DNA from: Phormidesmis priestleyi BC1401
GTDB taxonomy: Bacteria; Cyanobacteriota; Cyanobacteriia; Leptolyngbyales; Leptolyngbyaceae
Direction: 5' to 3'
DNA length: 64,000 nt
NCBI RefSeq assembly: GCF_001650195.1
Contig: NZ_LXYR01000006.1
Span: forward strand, 62,001 to 126,000
Notes under the pieces: model-generated
The model's input: the letters and a program-made list of their open reading frames with translations, nothing else
Told to the model about the DNA's origin: nothing
The model's database searches: none
Part shown: piece by piece, positions 13,359-33,425 of the stretch
Position numbering within the stretch: the stretch's first letter is position 1
Layout: every line of letters starts with the position of its first letter
Position numbers and translations under genes: made by a program

Positions 13359-13486
13359 ATTTTGAGTTATGAATTTTGAGTGCGTCGAGACATCAGAAGC
13401 TACGTCGAGACGAGATGCCCTAACGCTTGTGCTTAAGTCTTAAATCGTAACAGTGGATTCTAACTCAAAACTCAAAACTCAAAACT
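13359..13486. repeat. Intergenic inverted-repeat region rich in ACTCAAAACTC
   Basis: Between the aminotransferase start and the aldolase stop, TTTTGAGTTATGAATTTTGAG (13360-13380) faces three direct copies of ACTCAAAA at 13463-13486 in inverted orientation. Inside are two copies of GTCGAGAC. This type of repetitive spacer is common in cyanobacterial genomes. No gene is visible here. Confidence 0.5.
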
Positions 13487-28536: not shown

Positions 28537-29466
28537 TTAGGATTCCTGAATCGTCTTGCCGATTAACTCACTCACCCGTTCATTTCCGATCGGATTGAGG
28601 TGAATGTGATCATGGTAAACGTCTTTCGGTGTTTTGATTTCTGCATTAAAAACCGTCAAAAAATCGATATATTGAATCGATTCTATCTGAGCGAAGGCTG
28701 AAAGACGTTGACGGGCAACGAGTTCGTAGTCTCTGGGGGCTTGTTCAAGTTCTCTCAAGAGCGGGGTCATGACGAGCAAAAATCGAGCCTTGTTTTGACG
28801 AGTGAGGTGATCAATTTGACGAATCGCGTCTAGAATGATGCCAACTCGATCGCCGCCTTTTGTCTGCACTGCCTTCAACGCGTCTGACATGGGCGGAGTT
28901 GGAAGTAGATAGCGGCTAATCACTTCGGCAAGGGCAGATGGCGGTTTGCGGTCGGGATAGTTGCGATCGTGCCCCACAGATAGAGAAGTCGGAGCCGTCG
29001 CAAACAAATCGTCGGTGTTGATTACCAGCACCAGGATCTGAGACTGAAACAGTCCAAAGCGCTGAAGATACGCCAACTCATTTCGGGGACTCCAAGAGTT
29101 TGCGGAGGCGTTGAGAACCTCTACAGAAGGTTTAAACGCGGTTAAGTAAGTTGCCAGAGTTTCAGAGAGAGTGTCTTTTTGATCAGTCCACCAGCCGCCG
29201 TTGACGATCGAGTCTCCGATCATCAAAACCCGCAAAGTTGAGTCGGGTCGGGTTGCCGCGATCGTGCCGCTTCGCATTGAGTATTCGTTAATTTGGATGC
29301 GGTTGCCAAACCGACGGACGTTTTGATTGGGCGCTAACAGGTAGCCGATCTGGCGATCGCTTACATACAGTAAAGGATTTCCAAATCCAAACGCTGACCG
29401 TAGAAAGACCTCTAAAAAAATTAACCCGACGATGAGAATTCCCCCAGTCAGCAGCACAAGTTTCAT
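28537..29466 (-). CDS. Membrane-anchored SGNH/GDSL hydrolase
   Basis: The 309-residue protein has one N-terminal transmembrane helix (LVLLTGGILIVGLIFLEVFL) followed by an SGNH domain. The nucleophile block is VLMIGDSIVNGG at about 81 and the final block is DHIHLNPIGNERV at about 286, with the Asp and His. The hydrolase domain probably faces the periplasm. Such proteins deacylate or modify envelope sugars or lipids; the substrate is unknown. It lies 49 bases upstream of the GH25 gene on the same strand, so the pair may be an envelope-maintenance operon. Confidence 0.8.
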   Translation of the reverse strand: MKLVLLTGGILIVGLIFLEVFLRSAFGFGNPLLYVSDRQIGYLLAPNQNVRRFGNRIQINEYSMRSGTIAATRPDSTLRVLMIGDSIVNGGWWTDQKDTLSETLATYLTAFKPSVEVLNASANSWSPRNELAYLQRFGLFQSQILVLVINTDDLFATAPTSLSVGHDRNYPDRKPPSALAEVISRYLLPTPPMSDALKAVQTKGGDRVGIILDAIRQIDHLTRQNKARFLLVMTPLLRELEQAPRDYELVARQRLSAFAQIESIQYIDFLTVFNAEIKTPKDVYHDHIHLNPIGNERVSELIGKTIQES

Positions 29467-29676
29467 CGGCAGTGAGGTCTACAAAATTGCCTTTCTATCT
29501 TGGCGTGTAGGGTGAGCGATCGTAATTTCAAGATCACATGAAATGGTGATATTAGAGGCACCTATCAGAGACAGAAGCTAAAATGGTGCTTAAGAAAGAG
29601 TAACAAACTCCTTTTTCTTGACTAACTTAGAGTCGGTCATGTCGTTTCTACACTACATCAGAAGGGAGTTTCTAGA

Positions 29677-29817
29677 ATGTCGGACTTAAATCGAGGCATC
29701 ATGAAGTTTGAGGGTGCAGACAGTGCAGTCGCTCTCACAATTTCTGCAACGGTCATTTTAGGCGGCATTGCAGTCTTGATTTTGTGGGCACTCAAGTCCG
29801 CCTACACGATGGGTTAG
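29677..29817 (+). CDS. 46-residue single-pass membrane protein
   Basis: This short gene starts at ATG 29677 with GAAGGGAG eight bases upstream, a very good ribosome binding site. The product reads MSDLNRGIMKFEGADSAVAL, then one transmembrane helix (ISATVILGGIAVLILWAL) and a short tail ending YTMG. I remember similar small proteins in cyanobacteria, but cannot name it with certainty. It looks like a small subunit of a membrane complex. A perfect terminator follows at 29846. Confidence 0.72.
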   Translation: MSDLNRGIMKFEGADSAVALTISATVILGGIAVLILWALKSAYTMG

Positions 29818-29845
29818 GGTTTGACTATTGACTGATTCCGATCAC

Positions 29846-29884
29846 AAAAGGGGCGTATTTCACGAGTGAAATACGCCCCTTTTG
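29846..29884 (+). terminator. Very strong rho-independent terminator
   Basis: AAAAGGGGCGTATTTCAC pairs with its exact complement through the GA loop at 29864-29865 and ends in CCCCTTTTGT. A similar stem sequence (GGGCGTA...TACGCCC) recurs after the RNA-binding protein gene near 60755. Confidence 0.9.
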
Positions 29885-29916
29885 TAAGGTTGCTATAAAG
29901 CACCTAACACGACTGC

Positions 29917-30290
29917 CTAAACTGAGCCGCGTCCGCCAAAGAGACTGACTCCCCCAATCACGGTAGCGGAGATCGCGTTCAGCAACAGAGTGGCACTAAT
30001 TTGAGTAGCGACGGTAGTGCTTCGAGAGGTCAGCATAGTGATCACTACAGGCGCTAGCATCAATGCGACCGCGAATCGTGGCAAGCTCTGTTGTAAATTC
30101 TTCGTGAAGTCGTTGACGGGTTGACAAATCTCCTTTTTTCACCAAGTCAGCCGTTGATGCGGCGACCAGTTCGGTGAAGATGGGATCTGTTCATAGTCTT
30201 GCAAGGTTGTTGTGTTGCGATCGGCTGCAAACTTGTCATTTCGATCGTAACTTTCAGTGTCGGGCGAGAGAACTTCGCTGAGGTCTTACA
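29917..30290 (-). pseudogene. Decayed iron-uptake porin (SLH/OprB type) remnant
   Basis: On the minus strand a broken frame reads DPIFTELVAASTADLVKKGD and continues with LSTRQRLHEEFTTELATIRG and RIDA. This matches the N-terminal coiled-coil region that follows the SLH domain of cyanobacterial iron-uptake porins. A frame change near 30055 leads to LTSRSTTVATQISATLLLNA, ending at a stop at 29917; another frame break lies near 30190. I count at least two disruptions and no start codon. The beta-barrel part is gone. Family recall is by eye and moderate in certainty. Confidence 0.5.
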
Positions 30291-30401
30291 GCAGCCTCTT
30301 CACTGCGATCGTGTCCCGCCCGTGAATGGAATTCCGGGCTAGCCTTGCGAAGTCCATTGAAATGGACTGAATTACCTCAATCCCTCTTTCAGTCCCTTGA
30401 G

Positions 30402-30537
30402 TGGACTTCGCACCGTTAGACCGTGATTTTTAATCAAGGGCGGGTGAATGCTAGCCACGAGGGAGTCTTAATCGGGTGCAAGATTTCAGCTTCAACGGAC
30501 TTCCCCTAGTTAGCCCGAACTTCAGTTCAGGGCGGGG
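30402..30537. repeat. Two diverged copies of a cyanobacterial GGACTT...GGGCGGG intergenic repeat
   Basis: Unit 1 (about 30402-30446) begins GTGGACTTCGCACCGTTAG and ends AATCAAGGGCGGG. Unit 2 (about 30493-30537) begins CAACGGACTTCCCC, continues TAGTTAGCCCG and ends TTCAGGGCGGGG. A GCGAAGTCCA at about 30346 is the inverted partner of TGGACTTCGC in unit 1. These are non-coding, palindrome-rich repeats of a type often scattered in cyanobacterial genomes. Confidence 0.55.
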
Positions 30538-30552
30538 CAGAATCGCAGTTTT

Positions 30553-30804
30553 GAAGTTGAAGCAATTCTATGGGAAGTTGAACGATCGTGCCCTGAACTC
30601 GAAACTTTGACCTCTGAACTCGAACGATCGCTCTTTGAAGTTGAACGATCGCCCTTCAAACTCGGACGATCGACCTTTGAACTCGGACGATCGTCCTTTG
30701 AACTCGGACAATCGTGCTTTTTGCTCGGAACTTCGACCTCTGAACTCGGACGAACACGTAGTGAAGCGCAGCTACCGTGCTTTGAACTCAAAACTCCGAC
30801 CTTT
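30553..30804. repeat. Tandem array of twelve 21-bp units
   Basis: Twelve contiguous 21-base units can be laid end to end exactly from 30553 to 30804. The consensus starts GAACTCGGACGATCG and ends with a six-base tail close to ACCTTT. Units 4-8 are the best preserved; the outer ones are diverged. Because 21 is divisible by three, several frames stay open and produce apparent repetitive proteins on both strands, but none has a credible start. Each good unit contains CGATCG, the core of the HIP1 octamer. Confidence 0.85.
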
Positions 30805-30955
30805 GAGGGGAAATTGTTGAAGATGGATTAAGAAAAGCGGGGTTCGCAAAAGCAAGCGTCATAGTTTAGACAGCATTGCTGGTGTCCGTAAAATAATGTT
30901 TTGGGCTTGTTGACGATCGAATTGCTGTGCTTGCCCCTTATTTGCAGCTTAACCT

Positions 30956-31051
30956 ATGGTTTGCCCCCGACGTTTGCAGAAACAGCCCGCTTTTTACCGC
31001 TTACTGGTTGTGGTTTGTTTGACGATCGGGCTGTTGGTTGCCTCTCCCTAG
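30956..31051 (+). pseudogene. Orphan signal-peptide fragment
   Basis: A 31-residue frame reads MVCPRRLQKQPAFYRLLVVV, then CLTIGLLVASP and a TAG. This is a textbook signal peptide with nothing after it. Past the TAG the frame remains open for about 27 more codons (GAKNEAAAKAARLAKGGQ). It is probably the 5' scrap of an exported protein gene, stopped by a nonsense change. The source gene is unknown. Confidence 0.35.
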
Positions 31052-31185
31052 GTCGGCGCAAAGAATGAGGCAGCAGCCAAAGCCGCAAGATTGGCAAAGG
31101 GAGGTCAGGTCGCTTACAATTCCCAGTAGGATTACAGACAAAATTCTAACTACGTGATCTAGGCTTCCTTAGAGGGCGTGTGCTA

Positions 31186-31533
31186 ATGACGACGAAGTTA
31201 ATCAGGCTGCAAGATGGCACATTGGTAGAAGTAGAGGTTTCACCAGGCGAAGCGCAACAAATTGCTGGCGGCTCTATGGCAAAGAGAGTCGACTCTACTT
31301 TTGAAAAAATCAAACCTACATTAATAAATGCTTGTCGCCCCATTGCAGATGTCTGGCAAGAACTCAGTAAAGATATGCACATTTCTCAAGCTGAGGTTGA
31401 AATCGGTTTGAGCTTTGCGATTGAGGGCGACATTTACATCGCTAAATCTAAGGCTGACGCTAATCTTAAAGTGAAGCTGACTCTTAAACCAAAGGAGGCA
31501 ACAGAAGAGTCAACGGTCAACAGTAAGGAGTAG
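31186..31533 (+). CDS. Trypco1 (trypsin-co-occurring domain 1, CU044_2847) family protein
   Basis: The protein has 115 residues from ATG 31186. It starts with a beta-rich segment (TKLIRLQDGTLVEVEVSPGE), has a central helical stretch (FEKIKPTLINACRPIADVWQ) and a C-terminal segment ISQAEVEIGLSFAIEGDIYI typical of Trypco1, ending in an Ala/Lys/Thr-rich tail. Trypco1 proteins were described by Aravind and colleagues as partners of trypsin-like proteases in prokaryotic conflict systems, thought to be regulators or effector-associated domains. The trypsin-like gene starts five bases after its stop, so they are one operon. Confidence 0.82.
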   Translation: MTTKLIRLQDGTLVEVEVSPGEAQQIAGGSMAKRVDSTFEKIKPTLINACRPIADVWQELSKDMHISQAEVEIGLSFAIEGDIYIAKSKADANLKVKLTLKPKEATEESTVNSKE

Positions 31534-31538
31534 TGTAA

Positions 31539-32603
31539 GTGAATTCAGATTTAGATGATTCAGTTACTTTAATCACTAGCGAAAGTAGCGAAATACCTGA
31601 TTTCGGGAGCGGCTTCGTGATTCATCAAGATGAAGGCACAACTTTCTTATTGACCTGCGCTCATGTTGTAAAAGATGTTGGCGGTACAACAAGAGTTAAA
31701 GTTGGTGCAGATCTTGCCGAGGTCTTTAGATTGGGCGAAAAGGACGGGTGCGACTTAGCCATTCTTAAAGTTGATGGGCTAATGAGAAAACCACCGCTCA
31801 AGCTATCTAATTCTGCTACTAAAGGTAAGCGAATCATCATAGCAGGCTATTATCAAAACGAGACAAAAGTAAAAATCTTAAGAAGAATTTCAGGCGTTAT
31901 TGGTGAGCGCATTGTTTTTGAGTTAGATGGCGATCGCACTGTTGTATGGGATGTGGAGATTGATGAGAGCAGTAAGTATTTTTTACAGCCTGGATACAGT
32001 GGTTCTCCGGTAGTAGACGAGCAGACCGGAGCAACGATTGGTGTCATGAGCCAGCGTGTAGGAACAGGAAGGCAAGGATTAGCTATATCTATAGAGGCAG
32101 TGAGGAAAATCTGGCAGGATATTCCAAGTTCATTACTACAAAATGAGCTAAATTACTTGCGTAACGAAATCGCTATTAAAGAGAGAAGAATTGAGAAAAG
32201 TAGAGAAGAGCTAAACCAGGTTGAACTTTATTTAAGAAGTAGCGCTAATCAGCAGTTTAACAAATCTCTACGCTGGTTGAGTAATCGAGGTTGGCTAGCA
32301 GAGAAAATTGGAAGAGAAGCTCTAAAACAGTTTTCTGATACCGCAAAATATTTGGAAGAAAATAATTATACTAGACGTTTTTACTTGGAAATTAAGTTGT
32401 ATTTAGACTTCATCTATTACTCCTTAGTAACAAAGCGATTTAACTTGTTGCATGAACCAGTTGTTTCTCAGTGTCAGTCTAATCCTGACGTGTATATACT
32501 AGCTTTGCAAATCCTTAAACAAAGAATTCCAGGACACATTGTTGAAGATGAGAGGAAAGCGCTAGAAGCCCGAATCGATTATTTAAAGAGCAGACTTCTT
32601 TAG
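31539..32603 (+). CDS. Trypsin-like serine protease with unassigned helical C-terminal domain
   Basis: The protein has 354 residues from GTG 31539, preceded by AAGGAG at eight bases. Residues 10-195 form a trypsin-like fold with a complete triad: His42 in LLTCAHVV, Asp72 in CDLAIL and Ser154 in PGYSGSPVV. No signal peptide is present, so it acts in the cytoplasm. Residues 200-230 form a coiled coil; 235-354 are helical and unassigned (FNKSLRWLSNRGWLAEKIGR, then YLEIKLYLDFIYYSLV). Trypco1 is immediately upstream. By analogy with known Trypco-trypsin modules it may be a suicide or effector-activating protease triggered by infection. Confidence 0.85.
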   Translation: MNSDLDDSVTLITSESSEIPDFGSGFVIHQDEGTTFLLTCAHVVKDVGGTTRVKVGADLAEVFRLGEKDGCDLAILKVDGLMRKPPLKLSNSATKGKRIIIAGYYQNETKVKILRRISGVIGERIVFELDGDRTVVWDVEIDESSKYFLQPGYSGSPVVDEQTGATIGVMSQRVGTGRQGLAISIEAVRKIWQDIPSSLLQNELNYLRNEIAIKERRIEKSREELNQVELYLRSSANQQFNKSLRWLSNRGWLAEKIGREALKQFSDTAKYLEENNYTRRFYLEIKLYLDFIYYSLVTKRFNLLHEPVVSQCQSNPDVYILALQILKQRIPGHIVEDERKALEARIDYLKSRLL

Positions 32604-32623
32604 ATCAAAATGCCGAAGACTTT

Positions 32624-32782
32624 TCAGCTTTCAAAACTGTATCCTCTGCATCGAAGAATTTCTTCAATTGCCTGGATATTCCAGTTTAAGTTGTCAAGAC
32701 TTTGTTCAGCTATTGCTAACTTCTGGACGAGTTTCTCTAACTCATCCATGAGTTCATCATCTGAGAGGGAGTCGTAGGGCAT
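32624..32782 (-). CDS. Small coiled-coil protein, unknown
   Basis: A 52-residue frame starts at ATG 32782 (MPYDSLSDDELMDELEKLVQ) and continues LNWNIQAIEEILRCRGYSF. The sequence is strongly amphipathic and acidic, with two predicted helices. It is too short for most gene callers. It is convergent with the trypsin gene (20 bases between stops). No family is recognised. Confidence 0.5.
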   Translation of the reverse strand: MPYDSLSDDELMDELEKLVQKLAIAEQSLDNLNWNIQAIEEILRCRGYSFES

Positions 32783-32897
32783 AGCTTAGATGTAGTTAAT
32801 TTTACTACTAACGATTTCTAGCTATTAGGTGATGATCCGGATCGCAGAAAAAGTCTTAGTTCAGGATGAAAAACTCATGAAGTTTCTGTAAAAGGCT

Positions 32898-33059
32898 CTA
32901 GTTTTTCCGGTCTTGCTCCTCTAACTCTTCGAGTCGATTTTTCAATTGTCGAACACGTTGTTCGGACTGGTGTTTCTGAATTACTAGTCTTTCAAGTTTG
33001 TCGCAAGCTTCATCTCGTTCACCTCTTTGCTCAGGTCGCGGCGATTCTTCCGGCTGCAT
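32898..33059 (-). CDS. Small charged coiled-coil protein, unknown
   Basis: A 53-residue frame starts at ATG 33059 (MQPEESPRPEQRGERDEACD). A heptad-like helix follows (LERLVIQKHQSEQRVRQLKN, then RLEELEEQDRKN). It lies 115 bases upstream of the other tiny gene, on the same strand. The helix pattern suggests a coding origin, but no ribosome binding site stands out. Confidence 0.45.
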   Translation of the reverse strand: MQPEESPRPEQRGERDEACDKLERLVIQKHQSEQRVRQLKNRLEELEEQDRKN

Positions 33060-33176
33060 AATGTCCTTTTAATAGTACATATGCTCTAATATACGTAGGT
33101 TTTTTGTACTATCAGGAAAAGTGTAAAATTCTTAAAACTTTGGAAAGACAGCAAAGGCGAAGCCCAGCACGGATAG

Positions 33177-33425
33177 TATTTTCGCCACGACAAGATCATA
33201 AAATTCTTCATTGTGCAAACCTTCCTCGGTGACGCACCCCAGGCACAAAACCGCCTGCTCGATCACATGGGCGATCCACGCTTTCGGGGAGTCTACTTCC
33301 TCCTCGCCACCCTGCTTCCTCTTGCTGATGCTCAAGACCTACGCGAACGGCTGATCCAATACGCCGCAGACACCAAAGATCACACTGTCAGCGATACTTT
33401 TGTCCAACTGTTGCGAACACGATAA
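33177..33425 (+). pseudogene. C-terminal stub of a probable STAND (NACHT-like) NTPase
   Basis: The frame, open after a TAG at 33174-33176, reads YFRHDKIIKFFIVQTFLGD, later RLLDHMGDPRFRGVYFLLAT and ends DHTVSDTFVQLLRTR. The FRHDKI..FFIVQ...DPRFRGVYFLLA...YAADTKDHTVSDTF pattern is one I associate with the C-terminus of large cyanobacterial STAND NTPases. The ATPase part is missing and the frame is interrupted by the TAG. A GTG at 33213 could start a 70-residue product, but this is more likely a remnant. The opposite-strand frame here is ignored. Confidence 0.5.

Follow-up and report, generated by a model that had tools for sequence, protein, structure and literature searches.

The array at 30553–30804 of the window (the whole analyzed stretch of DNA, 64,000 nucleotides) is one copy of a dispersed tandem-repeat family of filamentous cyanobacteria. 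The family combines a 21-bp period and a common phase with self-complementarity, dispersal, conserved position with changing length, and no codon-position signature. The explanation that we favor, with a confidence somewhat above an even chance, is that of an old dispersed cyanobacterial family, a higher-order relative of the heptanucleotide repeats, in which the phase is kept by homology-driven turnover of whole units. The window array most likely has no gene-specific job at its locus.

The Window Array and Its Surroundings

The array and the features around it were assigned as follows (window positions):

30178–30286, minus strand: short, weak Uma2-like stretch of about 30 aa (tblastx matches of 30–33 aa to G001 and G003; the intact G001 gene matches Uma2)
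30553–30804, no strand assigned: array as initially annotated, with CGATCG at 30583, 30625, 30646, 30667 and 30688
30574–30820, no strand assigned: 21-bp tandem array of about 12 units with no phase jump and a nearly self-complementary unit (cyclic HMM, TRF, unit list; HMM bounds converted from L042 3574–3820)
30780–31096, plus strand: array edge, conserved flank and 5′ end of a HEAT-repeat gene (82% DNA identity to G001)
31180–32603, plus strand: Trypco1 gene and trypsin-like peptidase gene between the ends of the HEAT-repeat gene (Pfam PF19493, PF13365)
33141–33425, plus strand: 3′ end of the HEAT-repeat gene (87% DNA identity to G001)

The initial annotation had described contiguous, in-register 21-bp units over 252 bases, and this description held. 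The array is free of indels, comprises about 12 units and has an identity of 0.63 at lag 21, versus a maximum of 0.397 in 5000 mononucleotide shuffles (best lag, 5 to 63). It is the strongest 21-bp signal within the 64-kb window; TRF scored it 139 for a period of 21 and 176 for one of 63. Two further statements had to be corrected. The units were said to be mostly built around CGATCG, but the 252 bp contain just five exact CGATCG (and five GATC). At least three frames were said to remain open on both strands, but only two of the six are stop-free, one on each strand (+ frame 0 and − frame 1), the remaining four having 1, 12, 2, and 2 stops. Upstream of the array, at 29677–29817, lies an ORF of 46 aa with one hydrophobic stretch (read by eye), which we take to resemble a small photosystem protein.

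A Dispersed Family

The proposed search for the same unit elsewhere was fruitful. In its own genome, BLAST with the window array returned 14 matches, itself included; an 18-base pattern with up to two mismatches gave 26 matches (control pattern, 0), and a sequence model built from 38 trimers gave at least 98 matches with E values no higher than 1 after the scoring of 150 of the 2152 candidates. Among other genomes (own genome included in each count), BLAST with a query taken from the C2 array found matches in 15 of 39, the sequence model in at least 14 of 29, and a phylum-wide search under stricter filters in at least 12 of 292. A degenerate two-unit pattern, scanned over one genome per GTDB species, matched at least 112 stretches; the 80 listed were all cyanobacterial by title. 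The listed matches came mainly from Nostocales and also from Tildeniella, Stenomitos, Myxacorys, a Lyngbya, and a Leptolyngbyaceae MAG. Among the literature matches listed, from a library with few subscription journals, no paper dealt with the 21-bp family by title or abstract start.

Anatomy of the Unit

When trained on both strands of 70 selected loci, a cyclic 21-state model yielded 71 arrays scoring above 40 (19,919 bases). The loci of this first set, also used for gene arrangement, stops, folding, and column pairs, were picked from the best matches and so favor well-kept arrays; one array (L126) duplicates a G001 locus. The unit, with a consensus of about AGTTCNGAACTCGAANNTTCG, consists of three degenerate heptamers, is close to its own reverse complement, and carries two dyads 10.5 bp apart. 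The lowest conservation within the unit falls at the dyad centers.

The units are diverged (7623 of 18,428 adjacent-unit positions differ), and the phase is well held: no jump was found in 61 of the 71 arrays, and three of the ten jumps were by 6 bp. For 56 arrays scoring above 60, with no jump and of at least 150 bp, mean identity was 0.41, 0.40, 0.59, and 0.63 at lags 7, 14, 21, and 42, respectively, and about 0.19 at lags 9–12. The best reverse-complement self-match (mean 0.48) fell in one register in 54 of these 56 arrays, with 0.35 in the registers shifted by 7 and 0.16–0.30 in the others; training on both strands favors a common register, not the height of the match.

A second set of 121 arrays came, with the model fixed, from 109 of the 112 loci of the GTDB pattern scan. 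Its origin from an exact pattern favors conserved arrays, and at least four loci (L256, L274, L291, and L314) overlap the first set. Mean identity was 0.51, 0.50, 0.79, and 0.79 at the same four lags, 117 of the 121 arrays had no phase jump (four had one), and the same reverse-complement register was best in 100 of 121. A 7-bp periodicity is thus present in both sets (lag-7 identity of 0.41 and 0.51 versus about 0.16–0.20 at lags 9–12), but jumps of 7 bp occurred in 1 of 121 and 0 of 71 arrays. Pure AACTCAA-type runs were found near the edge of 6 of 192 arrays, versus 1 of 840 in the control; since such runs are rare, the argument for a heptamer origin draws mainly on the lag-7 identity. A short pure heptamer run, AACTCAA × 3.6 (TRF), also lies at 13462–13486 of the window, the same heptamer being seen at a few array edges.

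Conserved Positions, Changing Lengths

The window array is also present in G001 and G003, beside the conserved flank, with a length of 247 bp in G000, 81 bp in G001, and 321 bp in G003; in G001, a PIN gene pair separates this array from a second piece of 68 bp. The Uma2 gene adjoins the array in G003 and in G001 stands past the PIN-domain gene pair and the second short piece. The PIN-domain gene and its partner thus sit between two short array pieces in G001 (L093 3583–4441), G000 and G003 each having one continuous array. The HEAT-repeat gene, intact in G001 (1033 aa; HEAT repeats match, AAA/NACHT matches only below the cut-off), is broken at 30780–33425 of the window, with the Trypco1 and trypsin-like genes between its ends. 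Elsewhere in G000 (C26, L040 2242–3428), a gene pair that by eye looks RelE/HigA-like is enclosed by two similar arrays with similar outer flanks, an arrangement suggestive of a duplication of array plus flank around the pair.

Orthologous arrays hold their position across genera while their lengths change. Their mean similarity was 0.955 (12 pairs), versus 0.915 for arrays at other loci of the same genome (272 pairs) and 0.907 for those of different genomes (1994 pairs), in a comparison omitting L126 and arrays scoring below 50, hence also the G001 ortholog of the window array. The higher value for orthologs points to descent plus local homogenization. A genome-wide dialect or a recent burst found no support, other-locus pairs being only slightly more alike within genomes (0.915) than between them (0.907).

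In the favored explanation, units would be gained and lost in whole 21-bp steps via homology-dependent slippage or unequal exchange, and this exchange would homogenize each array locally. It would also keep the 21-bp phase, because neighboring units are much more alike at lag 21 than at lag 7. The unit would be open enough to persist as a linker wherever an array falls in coding DNA. Several observations, besides the rarity of AACTCAA-type runs, run counter to this explanation. The same consensus is found at unrelated loci of distant cyanobacterial genera, which in-place slippage does not explain, so that dispersal or constraint of some kind must also be invoked. Stops are deficient in most frames relative to column-shuffled arrays (z −4.4 in the best frame). 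Finally, phase jumps occur in 10 of 71 arrays, and gaps are rarely multiples of 21: in global alignments of eight orthologous pairs, such gaps made up 9 of 65 within arrays and 0 of 121 in flanks, the gaps in the aligned arrays probably being misplaced owing to the divergence of the repeats.

CGATCG as a Local Flavor

CGATCG occurs 300 times in the window, versus 14.6 predicted by base composition. Its number per 21 bp ranged from 0.35 to 1.0 in 7 of the 12 scored arrays of the own genome, and was 0.59 in the only array scored from G001, which belongs to the same genus, and at most 0.56 in G029; per unit, it was 0–0.25 in G004, 0–0.39 in G005, and 0–0.07 in G020. The G003 ortholog of the window array has none. 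CGATCG is therefore a local flavor of the unit, a mark of the copies in this genus and not of the family. As to the putative methylation platform, conservation within the unit does not center on GATC. The suggestion that the array is a HIP1-seeded expansion survives only in part: the CGATCG core of the window units may reflect the abundance of the motif in the window, but HIP1 as the seed of the family is ruled out by the arrays of the relatives, most of which have little or no CGATCG, and by the G003 ortholog.

Arrays and Genes

By simple ORF calls, 41 of the 71 arrays lie between genes in tandem, 12 between divergent and 10 between convergent genes, and 8 within an ORF; arrays inside long ORFs are a minority in the second set as well (12 of 121). 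Arrays inside genes have a 7-residue period. Among the 20 jump-free arrays of both sets whose ORFs comprise more than 200 residues beyond the array (L140 and L256 being one gene, and several Nostoc cases having a similar protein context), 18 use one frame. In these 18 arrays, the unit-difference rates at codon positions 1, 2, and 3 were 0.248, 0.266, and 0.313, versus 0.256, 0.273, and 0.316 in the 158 others, hence no sign of selection on the peptide.

The G004 array lies within MenC and is absent from all nine usable proteins among the 14 other MenC loci aligned (the five others were read in a wrong frame and set aside), two of the nine having a short insert at the site. In G004, G005, and G020 (L138, L147, and L176), an array stands between two glycosyltransferase-9 domains of one ORF; these domains are encoded by separate neighboring genes in G000 and G006. 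In G013 they share one open frame of 715 residues with a short gap and no array match, so the fusion need not stem from the array. Further arrays were found in or adjoining histidine-kinase and nSTAND domains. A gene of about 160 aa with an array at its 3′ end was observed in G005, G011, and, as another family, G029 (L150, L157, and L167).

The cassettes between paired arrays prompted the idea of an association with toxin–antitoxin or defense genes, but Pfam counts showed no clear enrichment. The 103 flanking ORFs (hand-pruned from 119 candidates, two swapped for likely TA genes) included PIN 2, Uma2 2, and NACHT 3, and the 94 control ORFs (from 119 drawn out of 263) Uma2 3, PIN and NACHT not being among the control families listed; the best 25 of 160 flanking and 25 of 124 control families were listed.

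Alternative Explanations

The arrays could be a putative platform for a cooperative dimeric DNA-binding protein, which would be suited by dyads 10.5 bp apart facing one side of the helix. We judge this improbable, though worth serious attention. Such a protein remains a candidate, as the phase corresponds to two turns of the helix and the arrays share their dyads; the single best reverse-complement register in 54 of 56 and 100 of 121 arrays, the conservation minimum at the dyad centers, and the phase held also outside genes fit the idea. However, the both-strand training of the profile favors a common register, the registers shifted by 7 match too (0.35 versus 0.48), arrays of the same genome are barely more alike than those of different genomes, and no gene arrangement is preferred. 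In a broader version, which we regard as slightly less probable still, the unit would be a functional DNA module, its repetition offering a continuous one-sided surface to a putative dedicated dimeric protein of cyanobacteria, and binding would keep both the phase and the consensus across orders; the same estimate covers jointly the nucleoid-organizing, partition, or boundary functions envisaged for it. A Gram-positive LexA-type box was rejected because its spacing is a poor fit.

That the arrays are mobile or horizontally spread, copied as units to new sites and also between cyanobacterial orders, appears distinctly unlikely. One consensus is found in Nostocales and Leptolyngbya-like genera, the array in G004 MenC is absent from all nine usable relatives, and the distribution is patchy (at least 12 of 292 genomes under the strict filters, own included). 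Yet no sharp ends, target duplication, or enzyme stood out on informal inspection, the window array matched no plasmid or phage sequence, and no burst within a genome was seen.

We give very little credence to a general coding origin, in which the arrays are present or recent coding sequences for SELGTST-type heptapeptide repeats. The common frame of 18 of the 20 arrays in long ORFs (one gene counted twice) speaks for it, as do the orthologs in G000, G001, and G003, which by eye are open in a common frame and have similar C-termini. In the 49 other arrays (the recount omits L134 from the 50 intergenic ones), that frame has 45 stops, where column shuffles predict 69.1 (z −4.4; C1, z −3.7). On the other hand, stops are below expectation in four other frames too (z −2.0 to −3.7; G0, −1.1), so linkage inside the units may explain part of the deficit. 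Over the 4544 codons of the 50 intergenic arrays, stops per frame ranged from 45 to 344; in 25 of the 50 the best frame contains stops, and in the other 25 it is open, versus 20.4 expected to be open from column shuffles. Furthermore, no codon-position signature was found even in genes, and the ORF at 30607–30828 in the window array had no Pfam match. The stop deficit, which we counted for the coding explanation, reflects either linkage inside the units or a trace of translation. The coding repeat is therefore not supported as a general account, nor is it cleanly rejected. The initially proposed decayed coding repeat fares accordingly: stops in the best frame of half of the 50 intergenic arrays oppose it, the deficit (45 versus 69 stops) and the related arrays translated inside genes agree with it, and past translation of some arrays is possible.

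An RNA element, i.e., a hairpin-forming transcript that terminates, stabilizes, or regulates, is just as hard to credit as the coding origin, and selection for RNA hairpins found no general support: the low folding energies relative to dinucleotide shuffles (38 arrays of 140–280 bp, 16 shuffles each; median z −2.81, 25 of 38 below −2), the usually far more stable fold of one strand, and the excess complementarity at column pairs 4–6 (z 2.7) and 15–16 (z 3.5) are set against the comparison with column-shuffled arrays (median z on the stored strand −0.2, with 1 of 38 below −2, and on the stronger strand −0.19, with 3 of 38), no clear excess in 7 of the 10 dyad column pairs (716 units), depletion of pair 14–17 (z −4.3), and the lack of Rfam matches with E ≤ 0.1 at 29400–31700. 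In most arrays, the strand with the far more stable predicted fold is the one richer in G and T.

Comparison with Known Systems

Heptanucleotide tandem repeats of cyanobacteria are known as STRRs. The palindromic elements of Rickettsia are, like the 21-bp family, self-complementary and found in frame inside genes, but they are longer single insertions and not tandem arrays of 21 bp. In 2008, Elhai and others reportedly described small dispersed repeats of 21–27 nt in Nostoc, often within heptameric repeats or HIP1; these are said to be single mobile insertions, unlike the tandem 21-bp arrays. Palindromic coding insertions combine dyad symmetry with an in-frame position inside genes; the 21-bp family has dyads, its copies inside genes are a minority (8 of 71 arrays in the first set, 12 of 121 in the second), and no mechanism of insertion came to light.

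In the P6b region of the trnL intron, the class II heptanucleotide motif is NNTGAGT (PMC4476775), which resembles the AACTCAA-type runs found at the edges of a few arrays. STRR-type repeats share with the 21-bp family the 7-bp sub-period and the pairing of heptamers with complementary heptamers (PMC4476775), but the 21-bp unit has its own dyads and single-heptamer changes are almost absent. With a 7-bp periodicity and almost no 7-bp steps, the 21-bp family is a relative, not a member, of the STRR-type repeats. The GGGNATC and GGGGA(C/T)T repeats of Xanthomonas and Nostoc (PMC4692102) are likewise dispersed heptameric arrays with a non-coding excess and variable copy number, but differ in sequence, potential G-quadruplexes, and a period of 7 instead of 21. 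The TAACTGA direct repeats of Beggiatoaceae, Cyanobacteria, and Bacteroidetes (PMC4679880) resemble the family in being intergenic and patchy, with long arrays in some cyanobacteria; their heptamer is another one, with a period of 7.

PARCELs (palindromic amphipathic repeat coding elements; PMC2996958) are also patchy, dyad-symmetric tandem repeats that are translated. They encode 25-residue units in ORFs, whereas the 21-bp units are mostly intergenic; no 25-residue coding repeat was found, the period in ORFs being 7 residues and most arrays lying outside long ORFs. HIP1, GCGATCGC, has its CGATCG core in common with the Phormidesmis priestleyi units, but is a dispersed octamer, and CGATCG is not the core of the 21-bp family; HIP1 may be related to methyltransferases recognizing GATC and CGATCG (PMC4390886).

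In prokaryotes of many kinds, tandem heptamer repeats are described as the most abundant intergenic periodic DNA repeats, with no evident clue to what they do (PMC6344855). The family presented here is locked to 3 × 7 bp, that is, to two helical turns and seven codons, it has dyads, its positions are conserved between genera, and its arrays lengthen conserved enzymes. It offers a concrete system for telling apart slippage, protein binding, and tolerance in translation.
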